Shown one piece after another: positions 4,081 through 28,193 of a stretch of 33,351 nucleotides of DNA. The notes beneath the pieces are model-generated. The model was not told the origin of the DNA. It did no database searches and was given only the letters and a program-made list of their open reading frames with translations. This stretch comes from Candidatus Kaiserbacteria bacterium RIFCSPLOWO2_12_FULL_50_10 (GTDB lineage Bacteria; Patescibacteriota; Minisyncoccia; Phycocordibacterales; UBA918), in NCBI GenBank assembly GCA_001783515.1, contig MFMN01000013.1, positions 1 through 33,351 on the forward strand, in the 5' to 3' direction. Both the position numbers and the translations under genes were made by a program. Every line of letters begins with the position of its first letter. Position 1 is the stretch's first letter.

Positions 4081-4143
4081 GGATTTAACTACACAGTAAT
4101 CAAAAACATTACACGCCACTTTTGTCATCCTGGAAGGATCCAG
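4081..4143 (+). repeat. Repeat family A, solo 63-bp unit
   Basis: GGATTTAACTAC...CACTTTTGTCATCCTGGAAGGATCCAG; same 63-bp layout as other copies. Confidence 0.85.
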
Positions 4144-8123: not shown

Positions 8124-10043
8124 ATGAAGCACTTAAAACAAAAATTAAAAGAGGCACTACAAACTGAACCTAGTTTTCTGGATGCGGAGTCTGGTGAAAT
8201 AAATTATATAAAGGTAAAGGACTCTGCCGATACTGTAGATGCAAAGCTTATTGCCCTCCTGGCGGACTCTCCTGATCTGAAAGAGAAGTTTTTTACAAAG
8301 ATTAAGGATGTGTATGTCTTCAATATCCGTGATTTTAAGTTTTTCCTTGATGAGAATAAAATAGATAATTCATACACTCGGTATGCAAACAGAATAGGGC
8401 TTAGTGATAATAACGGACCGCTTGGTGAAACTGGCTCAGTAGTGCTTGATTTTCCATTTAAGGATTGCGTGCTTGAGGGGGGGCAGAGTACTGAGGAAGG
8501 TACAGATACTTATTTTGAACAGGATAAAACGGGTGAGTATCAGGCAAAGACTGCAAAGAGAAATGAAATATTTTTTAATCAGGTACTTGCTCACGATGAA
8601 ATAGACAGACTTCTTGATAAGAAGGCTTTTGTAAATTGGAAGCGATTTACAAAAGCTAGCGGAAAGGATGGTGAAGATGTTGGTGAAATCAAGCGTGATG
8701 AGAACGGCATAATCAAAGAAAACCTTATTATTAAGGGTAATAATCTACTTGCTCTGCACAGTCTCGAGTCTGAGTTTACTGGCAAGGTGAAGCTTATTTA
8801 TATTGATCCCCCGTATAATACTGGCACTGATAGTTTTGCATATAATGATAATTTCACGCATTCTACCTGGTTGACTTTTATGAAAAACCGCCTAGAAATA
8901 GCAAGAGAACTTTTGTCGGACGATGGAGTTATATTTGTCTCTATTGATGATAGAGAATATTCTTATCTTAGAATACTGATGGATGAAATTTTTGAACAGT
9001 CTAATTATCGCAACGTGATAAAATGGAGGAAGGTTCTTAGTGCGAAGTCTCAAAGTAAGAATCTTTCGAGTGTCTCAGAGTATATTATTGTTTTTTCAAA
9101 AAGTGAGGCATTTCAATACAAGGAATACTACCTTGAAACTGATACTGAAAAGGATAAAGACAATTACAGATACACAGAGGAAGCGACTGGAAGAGTATAC
9201 AGACTTTCTGATTTCACACAAAAAGGACAAGGCCCCGCAAAGTATTTTGGAGATAAACTATTGAATCCGCCTTCCGGCAAACATTGGATATGGTCACAAG
9301 ATAAAATAAATGAAGCAATGTCGAATAACCGCATAGTTTTTTCAAAAACAGGAATGCCTAGTGTGAAAAGATACCTTGATGAGAAAATGGGAATTCCGCT
9401 ATCGGACCTTTGGAGCGATGATGACGTTAAGATAATATCAGCAAATGATAAAGAGCGGAGGGATTTTGATGGGCAAAAACCTGAAGGGTTGCTAAAAAGA
9501 ATAATTGAAATAGCAACTGATAAAAATGATATAGTCTTGGATTATCATTCAGGGACAGGAACAACCTGTTCCGTAGCTCAAAAACTTGGCAGGCAGTGGA
9601 TTGGAATTGAGCAAATGAATTACCAAGATAATAATCCAGAAACTCGCTTGCAGAGTGTGATTATGGGCGACAATACCGGTATATCAAAAGAAGTAAACTG
9701 GACAGGTGGAGGCAATTTTATCTATCTTGAACTTGCAAAATGGAATGATAATGCAAAAGAAGAAATACAAAATACAAAAGATTTTTCTGCTTTGGTAAAA
9801 ATGTTTGATACACTTTATGAGCGATATTTCTTAAACTATAATCTTAAGATTAAGGAGTTTAAAGAGAAGGTAGTCAAAGAGGAAGAATTTAAAAAACTTT
9901 CACTTGATGAACAGAAACGAATGTTTTTGACAATGCTTGATCTTAATCAAATGTATGTAAACGAAAGTGAGATGGCAGATAATCGATTTGGTATCAGTAC
10001 AGAAGATCAGAAACTTACAAACGCCTTCTATGGCAAGAAATAG
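8124..10043 (+). CDS. mod: Type III restriction-modification DNA methyltransferase (Mod), beta-class N6-adenine/N4-cytosine MTase
   Basis: Catalytic LIYIDPPYNTGTDSFAYNDNF, then VLDYHSGTGTTCSVAQKLGRQWIGIE (SAM motif); immediately followed by res. Confidence 0.92.
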   Translation: MKHLKQKLKEALQTEPSFLDAESGEINYIKVKDSADTVDAKLIALLADSPDLKEKFFTKIKDVYVFNIRDFKFFLDENKIDNSYTRYANRIGLSDNNGPLGETGSVVLDFPFKDCVLEGGQSTEEGTDTYFEQDKTGEYQAKTAKRNEIFFNQVLAHDEIDRLLDKKAFVNWKRFTKASGKDGEDVGEIKRDENGIIKENLIIKGNNLLALHSLESEFTGKVKLIYIDPPYNTGTDSFAYNDNFTHSTWLTFMKNRLEIARELLSDDGVIFVSIDDREYSYLRILMDEIFEQSNYRNVIKWRKVLSAKSQSKNLSSVSEYIIVFSKSEAFQYKEYYLETDTEKDKDNYRYTEEATGRVYRLSDFTQKGQGPAKYFGDKLLNPPSGKHWIWSQDKINEAMSNNRIVFSKTGMPSVKRYLDEKMGIPLSDLWSDDDVKIISANDKERRDFDGQKPEGLLKRIIEIATDKNDIVLDYHSGTGTTCSVAQKLGRQWIGIEQMNYQDNNPETRLQSVIMGDNTGISKEVNWTGGGNFIYLELAKWNDNAKEEIQNTKDFSALVKMFDTLYERYFLNYNLKIKEFKEKVVKEEEFKKLSLDEQKRMFLTMLDLNQMYVNESEMADNRFGISTEDQKLTNAFYGKK

Positions 10044-10045
10044 TT

Positions 10046-12751
10046 ATGCAAAATCTATACGAAACTATAGGCGGACAGGCGTATAATCTAGGACTTCTTA
10101 AGCCTGAAATTCCGGAACATATCACAAACAATATCTGCAAAGAACCTTTCTATTGGCAAAAGGAAGCTTTTGTGAATTTACTTACTTATGAAGCAATACG
10201 AGAAAAAACAAATGCAGATGGTCCGGTGCATCTAATGTTCAATATGGCTACCGGTACGGGTAAAACGCTTGTAATGGCAGGCTCCATTTTGCATTACTAT
10301 AGGAAAGGCTACCGAAAATTTATTTTCTTTGTAAATCAGAAAAATATTATTTACAAAACAGTAAATAATTTTATTGACAGAAATCATCCAAAGTATTTGT
10401 TTGCTGATAAGATTATTATTGATGAGAAAACTATATCAATTAAGAAAGTAGATACTTTTTCAAATAATAAGGATGATATAGAAATTATACTCACTACTAT
10501 TGGTCAGCTTTACAGTGATATCCATACTGAGAAAGAGAATAAAGTAGTTCTCGGTGATTTCTTAAAAAAGGATATTGTAATGCTTGCTGATGAGGCACAT
10601 CACTTAAACTCAAAAACAAAGGCAACCGGACAAGTAAAAATTGATTTACCTATAGAGCTTACCGATAAATCAAGTGAGGAAGATATTGAGAAAAGTGGAT
10701 GGGAACACACTGTAAACGAACTATTGTTAAATAAAAATGGCTCAAAGAAAGAAAATAAGAATATCCTGCTTGAGTTTACTGCAACAGTGCCAGAACTTCC
10801 AAGTGTGATTGATAAGTACGCTCAAAAGATCATCTACAAGTTTGGACTCAAGGAGTTTCTTTCTGCTGGGTATACAAAAGAAATAAACCTCCTTTCTTCT
10901 AATTTGGATAAAAGGGACCGTATTTTGCAGGCTTTGCTTTTCAGTTGGTACCGGCACAAGATTGCACTTAAGAATAATATTGCAAACTTTAAGCCGGTAA
11001 TTCTTTTCAGAAGCAAAACTATTGAAGACTCAAAGAATGACTTTGAGGAGTTTGGTGCGATTGTGAATGGTCTAAAAGAATCAGATTTTGATTTTCTTAA
11101 AGACGTTGAGGATAAGTTTATTCAAGGAGAATATGCTTATGAACAGGGAAAATCACGAGTGATTGATCTGATTAAATTCATAAAGAGTAATGACATTAAA
11201 AAGTCTGAAATAGTTGACTTTATTCGTGATAACTTCGTTATTGGTAGGAATTGTGTGATTACAAACTCTGGATCAAAGAAGACAAAAGAAGAAATAAGTC
11301 AGGATCTAGAACAGTTACTTAATAATCTTGAAGATAAGGGTAATAATATTAGAGCCATCTTTACAGTTATGAGACTTACAGAAGGGTGGGATGTTCTGAA
11401 CTTGTTTGATATCGTACGTCTATATTCAGGTCGTGATGAAGGAAGGGATAAGGAGGGAAACAGAAAGGCAGGAAGTACCACAGTGTCTGAAATTCAGTTA
11501 ATCGGGCGTGGTGTGCGATATTATCCATTTGCATATGCTGATCATCAGAAAAATAAACGAAAGTTTGATGAGGATCTTGGCAATGAGATGCGTGTACTTG
11601 AAGAGTTGTATTATCATAGCGAATCAGACCATCGCTATATTGATGAGTTAAAGCGTGAACTTAAAAATAAGGGAATGCTTGACGACAAAAAGATAGAAAA
11701 GCGATTCAAGATAAAGAAAAACTTTGCAGAAAGTGATTTCTTTAAGGATGTTAAAATCTGGAAGAATGAGAAGATTGATAATCCAAATAGACAGAAAAAT
11801 ACGCTAGAGCACTTACAGTCAGAACCTCTGGAGTTTAACCTTGAAGGTACAGAAATTAAAGAACAGGAAATTGACTTTGATAAAAAAGACTCAGACAAGG
11901 ACCGTCTTTCTATGGCGGATTCAAAAAAATCAACAATAGAAATAACAATTAAAGACTTTGAAAAGCATATCTTTGAAAAGGCTGTGCATATAAAGGCAAA
12001 GTCAGCAGGATCTATTTTAAGATTCAGCGCTTTGCAAAATGAGGTGAAAATTGATTCTCTTGAAGATTTTAGAGTCCGTATTCTTGGAGGTTTCAAGGTT
12101 AAGCTTAAATCGCTAGAACCGGATTTTGATAAGATTCCAAATACTACAAAGCTTGTAATTCTGCTTGAGTCCTTTGATATTATCTGTGCAAAGCTAAAAC
12201 AAAATGTACAGCCATATAATGGCGGTGAGTTTGTGTCATATAAATTCTCTGAGTTCTTTAGTGGCGAGGTTCGTAAAAGTGTAGATAAAAATCCAGATAA
12301 TGAACGCCTTGAGGAGGCTCTGAAGGATCAGGATTGGTACGTTGTTGATCAGTTTTACGGTACAAGCGAAGAGCGGAGCTTGGTGGAAGATCTTAACGAT
12401 ACAATGATTGATCTGGAGAGGAAATATGGGGAAGGGAGGGTATTTCTTTTGCGAAATGAAGAGCAGTATAAGATTTATGAATTTGATACAGGTCGTGGAT
12501 TCCAGCCAGACTTCCTGCTTTTAATAGCGGATAAAAAGAACATTCATTATCAAGTCTTCATAGAGCCGAAAGGTGATAACTTGTTAGATCACGATAAATG
12601 GAAGAATGATTTCTTGGTAAAGATTACTGAGAAATACGGAGAAGAGAACATACTCACAATAGAGAACAAAGGATATAAATTAATAGGGCTACCACTTTAC
12701 AACAAAAATAGTAATGCAGCTTTTTCAGAGGCGTTTCAGGCGTTTAAATAG
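10046..12751 (+). CDS. res: Type III restriction endonuclease subunit (Res), DEAD/DEAH helicase plus PD-(D/E)XK nuclease
   Basis: MATGTGKTLVMAG (Walker A), VMLADEAHHL (motif II), QLIGRGVRYYPF (motif VI), C-terminal QPDFLLL...YQVFIEPKG. Confidence 0.92.
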   Translation: MQNLYETIGGQAYNLGLLKPEIPEHITNNICKEPFYWQKEAFVNLLTYEAIREKTNADGPVHLMFNMATGTGKTLVMAGSILHYYRKGYRKFIFFVNQKNIIYKTVNNFIDRNHPKYLFADKIIIDEKTISIKKVDTFSNNKDDIEIILTTIGQLYSDIHTEKENKVVLGDFLKKDIVMLADEAHHLNSKTKATGQVKIDLPIELTDKSSEEDIEKSGWEHTVNELLLNKNGSKKENKNILLEFTATVPELPSVIDKYAQKIIYKFGLKEFLSAGYTKEINLLSSNLDKRDRILQALLFSWYRHKIALKNNIANFKPVILFRSKTIEDSKNDFEEFGAIVNGLKESDFDFLKDVEDKFIQGEYAYEQGKSRVIDLIKFIKSNDIKKSEIVDFIRDNFVIGRNCVITNSGSKKTKEEISQDLEQLLNNLEDKGNNIRAIFTVMRLTEGWDVLNLFDIVRLYSGRDEGRDKEGNRKAGSTTVSEIQLIGRGVRYYPFAYADHQKNKRKFDEDLGNEMRVLEELYYHSESDHRYIDELKRELKNKGMLDDKKIEKRFKIKKNFAESDFFKDVKIWKNEKIDNPNRQKNTLEHLQSEPLEFNLEGTEIKEQEIDFDKKDSDKDRLSMADSKKSTIEITIKDFEKHIFEKAVHIKAKSAGSILRFSALQNEVKIDSLEDFRVRILGGFKVKLKSLEPDFDKIPNTTKLVILLESFDIICAKLKQNVQPYNGGEFVSYKFSEFFSGEVRKSVDKNPDNERLEEALKDQDWYVVDQFYGTSEERSLVEDLNDTMIDLERKYGEGRVFLLRNEEQYKIYEFDTGRGFQPDFLLLIADKKNIHYQVFIEPKGDNLLDHDKWKNDFLVKITEKYGEENILTIENKGYKLIGLPLYNKNSNAAFSEAFQAFK

Positions 12752-14961: not shown

Positions 14962-15122
14962 GTCGCCTCGGGGTCTATGAAAGTAATGAGGCTCTGCCGA
15001 ATACACTTTCAAGACAGCCGGGGATCCAGGAGTTAGAGCTATAGTTTTTCAGTCTGGATCCCCGGTTCGTTTGAAAATATACTCCGCTCTGCTTCGTTAT
15101 TTTCATAACGTCCGAGGATGAC
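14962..15122. repeat. Repeat family B element: two inverted ~69-bp stem-loop units around a 24-nt spacer
   Basis: CCGGGGATCCAG (15018-15029) / CTGGATCCCCGG (15054-15065) inverted; each arm has an internal TGAAA..TTTCA stem; right end GGATGAC. Confidence 0.75.
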
Positions 15123-15253
15123 AAGAATTAGAGTTACTAGTATGTCTCCGGCAGGTTTGGTAGATTACCTATGCGAAAAACCTTGAAGAGCCGAAACAGG
15201 GACTTTTGCGGGTGCTTATTTTGTGTATTCCTAGGTATTCGTATACTTAGGGT

Positions 15254-19560: not shown

Positions 19561-19620
19561 AATGGTTCTTCAGACTTTCGTGTGGGTGACAATTGAAAAA
19601 TTATATACACTTCACGAACT

Positions 19621-19800
19621 GTCATCCTCGTGATGTAGAGAGTAAACGAAGTACCCAAAGGGCATAAACTTCGCGGAGTATTACTCTCACATACACGGGG
19701 ATCCAGGATGAAAAGCAATAGTTCTAGAGCCTGGATCCCCGGGTTCTTAGAAAAGATACTACGCTATCGCTCCGTTATTTTCTAAAGCCCGAGGATGACA
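19621..19800. repeat. Repeat family B element: inverted units 19621-19706 and 19731-19800 around a 24-nt spacer
   Basis: GTCATCCTCG...CACGGGGATCCAG / CTGGATCCCCGGG...CCCGAGGATGAC; internal stems GAGAGTAA..TTACTCTC and TTAGAAAA..TTTTCTAA. Confidence 0.8.
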
Positions 19801-19928: not shown

Positions 19929-20054
19929 CTGGATCCCTCCTGGATGACAAAATGAGGGAATAGTGTTTAAAATTAACAGATGGTTAAGATCGATTTTAAC
20001 TTCTAATTATTTTAAATAATTACACCCAAAGTTTGTCATCCAGGAGGGATCCAG
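19929..20054. repeat. Repeat family A element: two abutting inverted 63-bp units (19929-19991, 19992-20054)
   Basis: CTGGATCCCTCCTGGATGACAAA ... TTTGTCATCCAGGAGGGATCCAG; central GTTAAGATC|GATTTTAAC. Confidence 0.88.
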
Positions 20055-22939: not shown

Positions 22940-23070
22940 CTGGATCCCTCCTGGATGACAAAAGTGGCGAGTACTGCATAACATAAATAAGTAGTTAAAT
23001 CCGACTTGGATTTAACTACTTATTTATTTAAAGATATATACGTAACTTTTGTCATCCAGGAGGGATCCAG
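22940..23070. repeat. Repeat family A element: two inverted 63-bp units (22940-23002, 23008-23070) with 5-nt centre
   Basis: Perfect 26-bp terminal inverted repeats CTGGATCCCTCCTGGATGACAAAAGT and perfect 20-bp inner stem ATAAATAAGTAGTTAAATCC-GACTT-GGATTTAACTACTTATTTAT. Confidence 0.93.
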
Positions 23071-23073
23071 CTG

Positions 23074-24348
23074 CTACGCCATTTTCGCCATTTCTTCTCG
23101 CACAACCGCTGCATCATCCCACGGTTGCTTGGTATTGTTCGGTCCCATAATGAACGGATCGGTGCCTTTGCCGCTGATGAGGACGATGGCGTTTTCTGGG
23201 GCGTTTTTGAGCGCGGTGCTGATTGCTTCGCGGCGGTCGAGGATTGTCTCTACGGGTGCGTCTTTCGACATGCCAGTACGCATTTCTCGTAGAATCTTTT
23301 CAGGGTTTTCGTCGTAGGGGTCTTCGTTCGTGAGAATAATCTGATCACAATATTGCTCAGCAATACGTCCCATGGGGGGGCGCTTCCAGGTGTCGCGTCC
23401 GCCGCCAGTATTGCCAAGCACGCAGACTTTGTATTCCTTGGGGAATGCTTGATAGAGTTTCTCGAGTGAATCGGGGGTGTGTGCGTAGTCGACAACTGCA
23501 GTGACTTTTTTCGCTGCTCCTTCAGGCGAATGGATTTTTTCAACACGTCCACGAATCGGCGCTAGGTGCTCAAGTGCGTAAATGATTTTCTTTTGTGGCA
23601 CGCCATATGCCGAGGTGAGCGCAATTGCCGCGAGCATGTTGTAGACATTGAAGAGCCCCACAAGCGGCGCACGAATGGTGGTGCCATCAGCGATAATGCT
23701 CACGCTGTCGTTGTTGAGGTGATATCGTTCGACATCCTTCAGCGAGTAGGGGATCCGTTTTTCTACCTTCATGGCGAGAAACTTTGCGCCCTCGGCGTCG
23801 TCGCTGTTGGCAACCATGACGCGCGGGCGCTTCTTTGAACGAGCGAGCGCTTTTGCGAGAAGGAGTTTTGCGGCGACGTATTTTTCGTAGGAACCATGCG
23901 ATTCAATATGTTCAGGCGAAAGGTTCGTAAAGACAAGCGCGTCAAGGTCGATGAATTTGTGACGGAACTGTTTTGCGCCTTCGGAGGTCATTTCAAGAAT
24001 CGCAATCTCGCAACCAGCATCCGCCGCGTCACGCAAGAACTTATGCACGAAGAAACGCCCAGGAATCGTCATTTTGCGCAGATTCCGCTCTGAGTGGTCG
24101 CCTATTTTGAAACGAATGGTTGAAAGCACTGCAGTTCGTTTACCATCGGCTTCAAAAATAGCGTTAATAATCTCCGTGACCGACGACTTTCCTTTGGTGC
24201 CGGTAACGCCGATTACAATGAGCTCCTTTGACGGCATTCTATAGAAAGTTGCACCGAGTACCGCGAGCAGATAATGGTACGCCGGCTGAAAAAACCGAAA
24301 GACTGACTTCGGGATTATTTTTTTGAGGTGGTAGAATAGTGTTTCCAT
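23074..24348 (-). CDS. murE: Mur ligase, MurE-like (UDP-MurNAc-tripeptide synthetase family)
   Basis: VIGVTGTKGKSSVTEII, LEMTSEGAKQFRH, DYAHTPDSLEKL, TNEDPYDENPEKI, GKGTD. Confidence 0.88.
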   Translation of the reverse strand: METLFYHLKKIIPKSVFRFFQPAYHYLLAVLGATFYRMPSKELIVIGVTGTKGKSSVTEIINAIFEADGKRTAVLSTIRFKIGDHSERNLRKMTIPGRFFVHKFLRDAADAGCEIAILEMTSEGAKQFRHKFIDLDALVFTNLSPEHIESHGSYEKYVAAKLLLAKALARSKKRPRVMVANSDDAEGAKFLAMKVEKRIPYSLKDVERYHLNNDSVSIIADGTTIRAPLVGLFNVYNMLAAIALTSAYGVPQKKIIYALEHLAPIRGRVEKIHSPEGAAKKVTAVVDYAHTPDSLEKLYQAFPKEYKVCVLGNTGGGRDTWKRPPMGRIAEQYCDQIILTNEDPYDENPEKILREMRTGMSKDAPVETILDRREAISTALKNAPENAIVLISGKGTDPFIMGPNNTKQPWDDAAVVREEMAKMA

Positions 24349-24393
24349 GATTTATTTTTTTACTACAGCTCTGCTGTGGTAAAAAATTAAATT

Positions 24394-24544
24394 AGATTTA
24401 ACTTTTTACCACTCTAAAACTTTTTCCGTTACTTTTGTCATCCTGGAGGGATCCAGGCTGATAGGTTATTGCTCTAACTCCTGGATCCCGTCAGGATGAC
24501 AAAAGGGAAATGTAGTGATTAAAGATTACTTAGTAGTTAAATCC
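24394..24544. repeat. Repeat family A element in opposite arrangement: units 24394-24456 (+) and 24481-24544 (-), GGATCCAG ends facing inward around a 24-nt spacer
   Basis: ACTTTTGTCATCCTGGAGGGATCCAG ... CTGGATCCCGTCAGGATGACAAAAG ... TAGTTAAATCC. Confidence 0.88.
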
Positions 24545-26588: not shown

Positions 26589-28193
26589 ATGTTCTTCGAA
26601 GCGCAAAAAAATGTTGTTCAAAATGTTGGGATAGGGTTGTTCCTCCTTCAGATTATTCTTCTCGCCCTTCTGCCGCAGAAAGGTTTTGCCGCGGCATATG
26701 ATTTTGCTGAGGTCTCGTATGTGGGCGCTGCGCTTTCTGTTGCTGCTGAGGACGCGGTGCCGTTCGGTATGCTTTTTGACAACACGGGCACGAAACTTTA
26801 TGTGCTCGGCACAACAGGAGATGATATTAGCGAATATGCACTCACTACACCATTCGACATTAGTACGGGCTCATTCACGCAAGTCGCACTTTCTGTTGCC
26901 GCACAAGAAGCGACGCCTGTAGCCATGGTGTATAACAACGACGGTACCAAACTCTATGTACTTGGTGCTAGCGGCGACTTTGTGGTTGAGTACGCACTTT
27001 CAACGCCGTACGACATTAGTACGGGCACCTATACAAAAATCGCCCTTCTGTTCTTGGCGCAGGAGACAAATCCCCGATCAATGCTCTATAACAACAACGG
27101 CACAAAATTATATCTTCTCGGTACGTCAGGCGATGATATTAATGAATATGCGCTCGCAACACCCTATGACATCAGCACCGGCACGTTCACCCAAGTTGCA
27201 CTTTCTGTCGCTACAGAAGACACCGCCCCTGCATCCATGATCTATAACGATGACGGTACGAAGCTCTACGTTGCTGGCGCAGGTACTGACGCGATATACG
27301 AATACACCCTCGCAACACCCTATGACATCAGCACCGGCACCGGGGTGCAATTGATACTTTTTGTTGCTTCAGAAGAAACCACCCCTACCGAGATAATGTT
27401 TAGTAATGACGGCACAAAGCTCTACATGCTCGGCACTTCCGCTGCAGACATTAAGGAATACACACTTGTGGCGCTTGACACGGAAAGTCCGAGTGTTGCG
27501 ATGACGACACCTGTGGACGGGGCGGTCATTTCAGGTGAAGTAGAGCTTACAGCGTCGGCAAGCGACGACGTTCAAGTGGTGTCACGACAATTTTATGTCA
27601 ATGGTGAGCAAGCAGGAAATGTAAGTGTGCGAGGGTCATTCAGAACCCTCTGGGATACAACAACCGTTACTGATGGAGTTAAAACGTTGGTGGCAGTTGC
27701 ACAGGATTCATCAGGAAACACTGCGACATCGACAGCGATTACGATAACCGTTCAAAATAACGCAGTAGAAGTAACCCCGGCACCATCGTCCCCAAAGAGC
27801 TCAGTTGTCGGTGGATACGACCCGGTAGCTCGCGCTGCGTATCTTGCGAAGCTGGGCGATACCATTGCGCTTCGCTCGCTTCTTGAACAGCGGCTTGCAA
27901 GTCTTATGTCGCAGCTCGCCGCGCTACAGCCTGCGAAAAAATCTGTAGCAGGAGTTTCTGTTACGGTATTTGCGCGAGAGTTCGGCATGCAAGATGAAGG
28001 TGATGATGTGCGAGCACTTCAGCAATACCTTGTGCAGAACGGCTACGCAATTCCGGCCGGTGCCACGGGCTACTTCGGCGGACAAACTCGCGATGCACTT
28101 ATTGCGTTACAGCACGCACACAACATCGAACCAGCTACTGGTCACTTTGGACCAAAGACGCGCTCATTTTTGAATAGCGTTAGCACAAGGTAA
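26589..28193 (+). CDS. Secreted protein: ~5 propeller-like 52-aa repeats, Ig-like domain, C-terminal peptidoglycan-binding domain
   Basis: Signal peptide-like N-terminus; repeats of (Y)NNDGTKLYVLGTSGDDIxEYALATPYDISTGT; Ig-like PSVAMTTPVDGAVISGEVELTASASDD; C-term DDVRALQQYLVQNGYAIPAGATGYFGGQTRDALIALQHAHNI. Confidence 0.85.
   Translation: MFFEAQKNVVQNVGIGLFLLQIILLALLPQKGFAAAYDFAEVSYVGAALSVAAEDAVPFGMLFDNTGTKLYVLGTTGDDISEYALTTPFDISTGSFTQVALSVAAQEATPVAMVYNNDGTKLYVLGASGDFVVEYALSTPYDISTGTYTKIALLFLAQETNPRSMLYNNNGTKLYLLGTSGDDINEYALATPYDISTGTFTQVALSVATEDTAPASMIYNDDGTKLYVAGAGTDAIYEYTLATPYDISTGTGVQLILFVASEETTPTEIMFSNDGTKLYMLGTSAADIKEYTLVALDTESPSVAMTTPVDGAVISGEVELTASASDDVQVVSRQFYVNGEQAGNVSVRGSFRTLWDTTTVTDGVKTLVAVAQDSSGNTATSTAITITVQNNAVEVTPAPSSPKSSVVGGYDPVARAAYLAKLGDTIALRSLLEQRLASLMSQLAALQPAKKSVAGVSVTVFAREFGMQDEGDDVRALQQYLVQNGYAIPAGATGYFGGQTRDALIALQHAHNIEPATGHFGPKTRSFLNSVSTR

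Follow-up and report, generated by a model that had tools for sequence, protein, structure and literature searches.

The window, by which we mean the whole stretch of DNA analysed here (33,351 nucleotides), is one contig (C13) of the 819,113-base genome of a Candidatus Kaiserbacteria bacterium (G000, 95% complete), in which a Mur-ligase gene lies between an ABC-F gene and ruvA and is flanked on each side by two inverted units of a repeat that we call family A. The first pair is arranged head-to-head, with a left arm at 22940-23002 on the minus strand (profile E 1.4e-15; REP end 22940-22962) that is 84% complementary to the right arm at 23008-23070 on the plus strand (E 1.2e-15; REP end 23048-23070). 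It starts 8 bp past the ABC-F stop codon and ends 3 bp before that of the Mur ligase, and as a single strand the whole 22940-23070 sequence folds with -48.9 kcal/mol (z = -16.5 against dinucleotide shuffles). The second pair is arranged tail-to-tail, with units at 24395-24456 (plus strand, E 7.1e-15) and 24481-24544 (minus strand, E 2.6e-13), the latter 8 bp from the ruvA stop codon. A solo unit occurs at 4081-4143 (plus strand, E 8.1e-17), downstream of a terminator-like hairpin, and a third pair, with its left arm at 19929-19987 (minus strand, E 1.3e-11) and its right arm at 19995-20054 (plus strand, E 1.4e-10), belongs to a subtype with an ATCGAT centre which is dominant in the nearest genome, a congener (G001, 97% complete).

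An initial annotation of this DNA had listed seven intergenic units of 63-64 bp, some of them ending close to stop codons, and had described perfect 26-bp outer and 20-bp inner inverted repeats in the 22940-23070 copy. All of this holds in our analysis, with slightly shifted edges at 19987, 19995 and 24395. The window also contains four units of a sister family, B: a tail-to-tail pair at 14966-15029 (plus strand, family B profile E 2.4e-13) and 15054-15123 (minus strand, E 4.4e-17, with covariation in its hairpin), and a unit with a longer hairpin at 19620-19706 (plus strand, E 3.8e-10), whose partner lies at 19731-19800 (minus strand, E 3.4e-15). Two other features of the window were noticed by eye. 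Neighbouring open reading frames at 8124-12751 resemble the mod (639 aa) and res (901 aa) genes of a type III restriction-modification system, and a predicted secreted protein carries four tandem coding repeats of ~156 bp, 61-75% identical (26769-27436), together with a C-terminal peptidoglycan-binding-like region.

Anatomy of the Repeats

Family A is not confined to the window. An iterated profile run across the 819-kb genome called 88 units and gave each unit of the window an E value between 1e-10 and 1e-17; a separate repeat search agrees on the units of the window. Two pair arrangements had been described previously, and both occur, although the one with the GATTTAAC ends inward is the standard form: the genome holds 35 such inverted head-to-head pairs and 18 other units, two of which make up the tail-to-tail pair of the window. 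Full pairs measure about 130-155 bp and have no coding capacity, solo halves are common, and at the 51 loci of this genome predicted genes, positioned with a simple gene caller, do not overlap family A by more than a few bases. Both genomes are draft MAGs in which long palindromes break assemblies, and one family A element contains an N gap.

From end to end, a full pair reads: tail, CTGGATCC[N5]GGATGACAAA, ~30 variable bases, GTTAAATCC, ACGT, GGATTTAAC, variable bases, TTTGTCATCC[N5]GGATCCAG, tail. Each unit thus ends in a small tagged hairpin with the core TGTC-ATCC-N5-GGAT-CCAG. The TGTC tag occurs in almost every unit of either family, A or B, and CCAG directly follows the stem in both. 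The family A stem starts with AT and has 4-5 bp, enclosing a loop of 5 nt with a 4-bp stem or of 3 nt where a fifth pair forms. Many inward pairs of this genome share the centre ATCC-ACGT-GGAT. Beyond CCAG follows a weakly conserved tail of ~12 nt, roughly G[CA]G[TC][TC]AGAGCA, and the 24-nt "spacer" previously reported for the tail-to-tail arrangement is made of the repeat's own tails, two of which abut at 24457-24480 (GCTGATAGGTTA and the reverse complement of GAGTTAGAGCAA); junctions of 24 nt recur in families A and B.

The expectation of compensatory changes in the stems was borne out for the end hairpin and failed for the long palindrome. Among 99 cores from both genomes, the third stem pair is C-G in 82, T-A in 15 (a paired change from ATCC/GGAT to ATTC/GAAT) and broken in two, and the T-A form may go back to one event that was later copied. 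The REP alleles of the two arms of one element agree beyond expectation (P = 0.0015). Covariation along the long stem of family A was sought and is absent: within one element the arm middles resemble each other less than when arms are paired at random (z = -2.5). What is maintained is therefore not the long palindrome. The pairs of this genome apparently have two arm types, AGTAATC..ATTAC and TCTCTCTAAAACAATAC, one element often having each, and solo units seem biased to the first type. We also considered integron attC sites, defined by GTTRRRY/RYYYAAC boxes, and rejected them, the tail being degenerate and devoid of an invariant GTT. A scan of Rfam returned tRNAs only and no match to the repeats.

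Family B has the same ends as family A, enclosing a long hairpin (TGTCATCC-TCGGG..CCCGG-GGATCCAG) whose stem is longer and interrupted and whose loop is not of 4-5 nt. There are 55 units in this genome and 34 in the congener, mostly tail-to-tail (24 and 13 pairs, respectively; a single head-to-head pair was found in G000). In 28 sequences of this hairpin, 98.1% of the pair cells are paired and 11 of the 21 pairs show changes on both sides, with far lower pairing and covariation in shuffles and slid structures; this covariation by itself is no proof of an RNA role, since template-switch repair of quasi-palindromes could also yield it.

A third element, family C (~45 nt, GGAGGTGAATTGGTACGAAGTACCAAGAGAGGCTGCCCTGGGGTA), was seen inserted inside REPs, always after ..GA: the site is GGATGA^CAAA for all eight copies of the congener, and GGA^TCCAG for two of the three in G000 (G000 sites C7:28649, C11:37657 and C24:10974; G001 loci L216, L217, K3, K6, K17, K18, K20, K22 and K25). 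It has no match in Rfam, and its appearance is that of a small, site-specific insertion element directed at REPs.

Distribution and Turnover

Among 59 relatives searched at the DNA level, family A was found in the congener only, apart from one weak 25-base match elsewhere, and a scan of 47 other genomes of the host's family with the REP pattern yielded stray single matches only. The congener has 26 family A loci, most of them with an ATCGAT centre instead of ACGT. The presence/absence polymorphism expected of a mobile repeat is there: for 37 loci of G000 with orthologous flanks, the element is present in the congener at 11 and absent at 26. Both pairs that flank the Mur-ligase gene of the window are among the empty ones, the ruvA/Mur-ligase junction of the congener measuring ~4 nt in place of the tail-to-tail pair, and its ABC-F/Mur-ligase junction being occupied by a family B hairpin where G000 has the family A pair. 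One empty site of the congener retains a 14-nt scar, CTGGAAGGATCCAG, pointing to a probable loss of the element at that one site. Flanks are only ~75-85% identical between the two species, and no target-site duplication or clean boundary is readable at the empty sites. Some occupied gaps are shared (e.g. C5:9551 and K20:3012, or C27:21515 and K14:93335) and contain species-specific centres, ACGT or ATCGAT, which suggests either repeated insertion at hot spots or replacement by conversion.

As for gene context, elements in G000 are enriched between convergent genes, where 16/50 of them lie as against 68/460 of all gaps of 60 bp or more. Few (3/50) lie between divergent genes, a position which holds 7 of 23 elements in the congener. 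About seven solo units of G000 were seen by eye directly behind a terminator-like hairpin.

GIY-YIG Genes between Repeats

In G000, just three genes are framed on both flanks by family A at a distance of no more than 150 bp: the Mur ligase and two genes for stand-alone GIY-YIG proteins. The latter are paralogues, 83% identical, located between inverted repeats at C15:50536-50838 and C23:20301-20597, and at the DNA level their two loci are homologous over the left REP, the gene and the right element as far as its centre. Their PF01541 domains score 55.5 and 55.0 bits (gathering cut-off 22.6), and the closest solved structures by sequence are UPF0213 proteins. At C23:16972-17301 lies a third member of this subfamily, whose stop codon is followed after 6 bp by a family B pair; the syntenic homologue of this gene in the congener has lost the N-terminal part, has a broken frame and likewise precedes a family B pair.

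The association extends to other genomes. Of 380 Patescibacteria genomes sampled, 132 have CGTC-type REPs, in many cases dozens of them, and reversed-pattern controls were near zero. In a first survey of REP-rich genomes, a mixed set of 31 GIY-YIG genes included just three with REPs nearby, a low count explained by the mixing of several GIY-YIG subfamilies and by a strict REP definition, and resolved when the subfamilies were split. With the subfamily defined by a profile (A2) seeded from REP-rich genomes, its genes in those genomes are housed in a repeat > gene < repeat unit: 38 of 44 subfamily genes from REP-rich Patescibacteria and plasmids have a tagged hairpin no more than 110 nt away on one or both sides, compared with 1 of 47 other GIY-YIG genes. 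At an exact 5-bp stem, the REP-rich Patescibacteria account for 30 of 32 (18 with hairpins on both sides) and the plasmids for 8 of 12, and dummy intervals show a tagged hairpin in 1.3% of cases on the 5' side, 1.2% on the 3' side and 0.07% on both. With a stricter stem (7 nt, one mismatch) the figures for at least one side are 24/32, 8/12 and, for other GIY-YIG genes, 0/47.

The subfamily split and the 5-bp stem were chosen after earlier results, so that the fairer checks are the plasmid set, whose members were picked by protein search alone (Azospirillum, Sinorhizobium, Rhizobium, Shinella, Neorhizobium, Aeromonas and others), and a presence/absence test. In this test the subfamily (E <= 1e-25) occurs in 37 of 45 REP-rich and 6 of 46 REP-free genomes (Fisher P = 1.3e-11, which like our other P values is descriptive, since the loci are related by descent and the counts are not independent events). 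The plasmid search also matched Azospirillum lipoferum, Sinorhizobium meliloti and Neisseria, three carriers of CGTC REPs (PMC3733652); the N. gonorrhoeae member adjoins such REPs, which are oriented there in the opposite way. Other widespread intergenic palindromes were observed flanking subfamily genes, namely GTCATTGCGAG..GCAATC, GTCATCCCGAG..GGGATCT and GTCATTCTGAG..GAATCTC (L308, L311, L312 and L335-L337), mostly in the same orientation to the GIY-YIG gene.

A Proposed Mechanism of Mobility

We propose, with a probability of about 0.62, that family A is a dispersed, non-autonomous REP doublet which is cut and spread by a GIY-YIG nuclease with the aid of host repair. The doublet has TGTC-tagged mini-hairpin ends, each with an outer tail of ~12 nt, and these ends are carried on a pair of ~40-nt inner arms joined at a palindromic centre. 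The GIY-YIG protein would recognise and cut its cognate repeat end, probably as a single strand or hairpin, a substrate that could be exposed during replication or on DNA imported through ComEC; imported single strands are a possible substrate because ComEC is encoded in both genomes. To our knowledge, a GIY-YIG nuclease alone has no strand-transfer activity, and insertion must therefore borrow host functions: host repair or recombination would copy the cut, repeat-ended DNA into new positions, and such copying, according to our proposal, would make repeats and nuclease gene spread together. Gene-less copies would persist where they are least harmful, at the 3' ends of genes and after terminators, and each of the two families, A and B, would depend on a nuclease paralogue of its own. 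The repeats outlast the enzyme, as seen in the congener, which has 26 loci and only a decayed subfamily gene. The different centre subtypes at loci shared by the two species are not simply predicted by this explanation.

In a broader and more tentative form, to which we grant somewhat less than an even chance, CGTC-tagged REPs and the GTCATTGCGAG- and GTCATTCTGAG-type repeats would all be mobilised by dedicated stand-alone GIY-YIG nucleases, in units that resemble the RAYT REPtrons with an unrelated enzyme and with one cognate paralogue per repeat family, the A and B families of Kaiserbacteria making up a genome with two such systems.

Some alternatives retain the nuclease and change its role. 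The repeats could be target sites kept for a host function, in which the enzyme cuts strands imported through ComEC and modulates natural transformation. A GIY-YIG single-strand nuclease of Neisseria meningitidis, Ssn, reportedly (~2025) acts on a sequence repeated hundreds of times and modulates transformation, a precedent that, with ComEC in both genomes, speaks for such a role. We consider it rather unlikely, given that the sister species have few repeat positions in common (26 of 37 absent), unlike host-selected sites, and that the congener keeps its repeats with a decayed nuclease. Alternatively, the GIY-YIG genes would be homing passengers copied into cut REP sites, and the repeats would spread by another route. 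In well-resolved cases the gene does lie between two repeat tails, as would a homing gene that splits its site, and the gene-less tail-to-tail pairs could be empty sites; however, presence of the subfamily tracks REP abundance (37/45 vs 6/46) and one genome holds two repeat families with separate paralogues, so that a working dependence fits better than parasitism and this second option seems to us quite unlikely.

The remaining explanations dispense with the nuclease. A length of ~130-155 bp, an inverted structure, dispersal and the absence of coding capacity would suit classical MITEs whose DDE transposase has since disappeared or is encoded at another place. Such an origin is made improbable by a conserved part that is a tagged local hairpin and not a plain terminal repeat, by the frequent solo halves, and by the lack of any identified target duplication (congener flanks having diverged). 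Retention as bidirectional terminators or as hairpins at mRNA 3' ends would account for the strong hairpins and for the convergent enrichment and divergent scarcity in G000 (16/50 vs 68/460, and 3/50), but no U-run follows the hairpin, the ~7 solo units mentioned are already behind a terminator-like hairpin, divergent gaps hold 7/23 elements in the congener and orthologous gaps often have no element, all of which renders this function very improbable. Finally, REPINs mobilised by a RAYT are hardly credible despite the matching REP-doublet anatomy and placement, since the tag is TGTC and not GTAG, Y1_Tnp (PF01797) has no match in G000 or in G001, and 17 of 46 REP-rich Patescibacteria have no Y1, which contradicts a RAYT save for gene loss or a location in the missing few percent of the assembly. 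The failure to see a RAYT in the window therefore extends to the genome as assembled, and of the likeness to REPIN/MITE doublets proposed in the initial annotation, the REP doublet stands (tagged end hairpins, inverted pairs, dispersal, location at gene 3' ends and presence/absence), whereas a REPIN in the strict sense, with its Y1/RAYT, does not. Across Patescibacteria, Y1 is a weak predictor of REP-rich genomes (29/46, compared with 177/380 overall by hand tally).

Comparison with Known Systems

Like ERIC sequences and bacterial MITEs, family A consists of intergenic imperfect palindromes of ~130 bp; it differs from them in its tagged REP ends and its common half-elements, and no target duplication was found at its diverged flanks. 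With Ssn, as reported, the proposed partner shares the character of a small stand-alone GIY-YIG enzyme linked to a highly repeated sequence. In the papers that we searched, nothing relevant on GIY-YIG nucleases linked to REPs was found; the link between enzyme and repeat may already be partly known through the Ssn report, which lowers our claim to novelty.

REPIN/RAYT systems consist of inverted REP doublets with a GTAG/GGAG tag and a Y1 enzyme gene flanked by repeats (Bertels and Rainey 2011, PMC3116915). Family A resembles them in its inverted doublets, dispersed as non-autonomous units, and in an enzyme gene flanked by repeats, and departs from them in its TGTC tag and in the GIY-YIG nuclease that takes the place of Y1.

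Family A also resembles the CGTC-tagged REPs, a superfamily with an unpaired CGTC (or TGTC/CCTC) tag on one end, an 8-9 bp stem starting with a paired AT, a loop of 4-5 nt and a CCA tail, in which head-to-head dimers predominate and tail-to-tail ones are rare, and for which neither an associated Y1 transposase nor a dedicated enzyme was reported and GIY-YIG proteins went unmentioned (Di Nocera, De Gregorio and Rocco 2013, PMC3733652). Family A shares with them the TGTC tag, the AT-starting stem, the short loop and the CCA tail, the intergenic location between convergent and co-directional genes without Y1, and the dominance of head-to-head pairs (35, and one tail-to-tail, in G000). Unlike them, it has a stem of 4-5 bp instead of 8-9, borne by inner arms that are long and conserved. 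Family B also departs from them, in its long covarying stem and its mostly tail-to-tail pairs. The host of both families, a Patescibacterium, lies outside the five phyla listed (PMC3733652), and a GIY-YIG partner is proposed. Because their stem lengths depart from 8-9 bp, we treat families A and B as a variant and do not file them under CGTC-1 to -4.

CGTC-tagged REPs are widespread in bacteria, yet were reported in 2013 to lack a dedicated enzyme (PMC3733652). The gene found between repeats in Patescibacteria and Proteobacteria, and tracking their abundance, reduces this question to a simple biochemical test. If our reading is true, the streamlined genomes of Patescibacteria would host repeat/nuclease pairs, two unrelated classes of enzymes, Y1 and GIY-YIG, would have converged on palindromic repeats. 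The GIY-YIG nucleases are a testable candidate for the enzyme that a large class of bacterial repeats has so far lacked.
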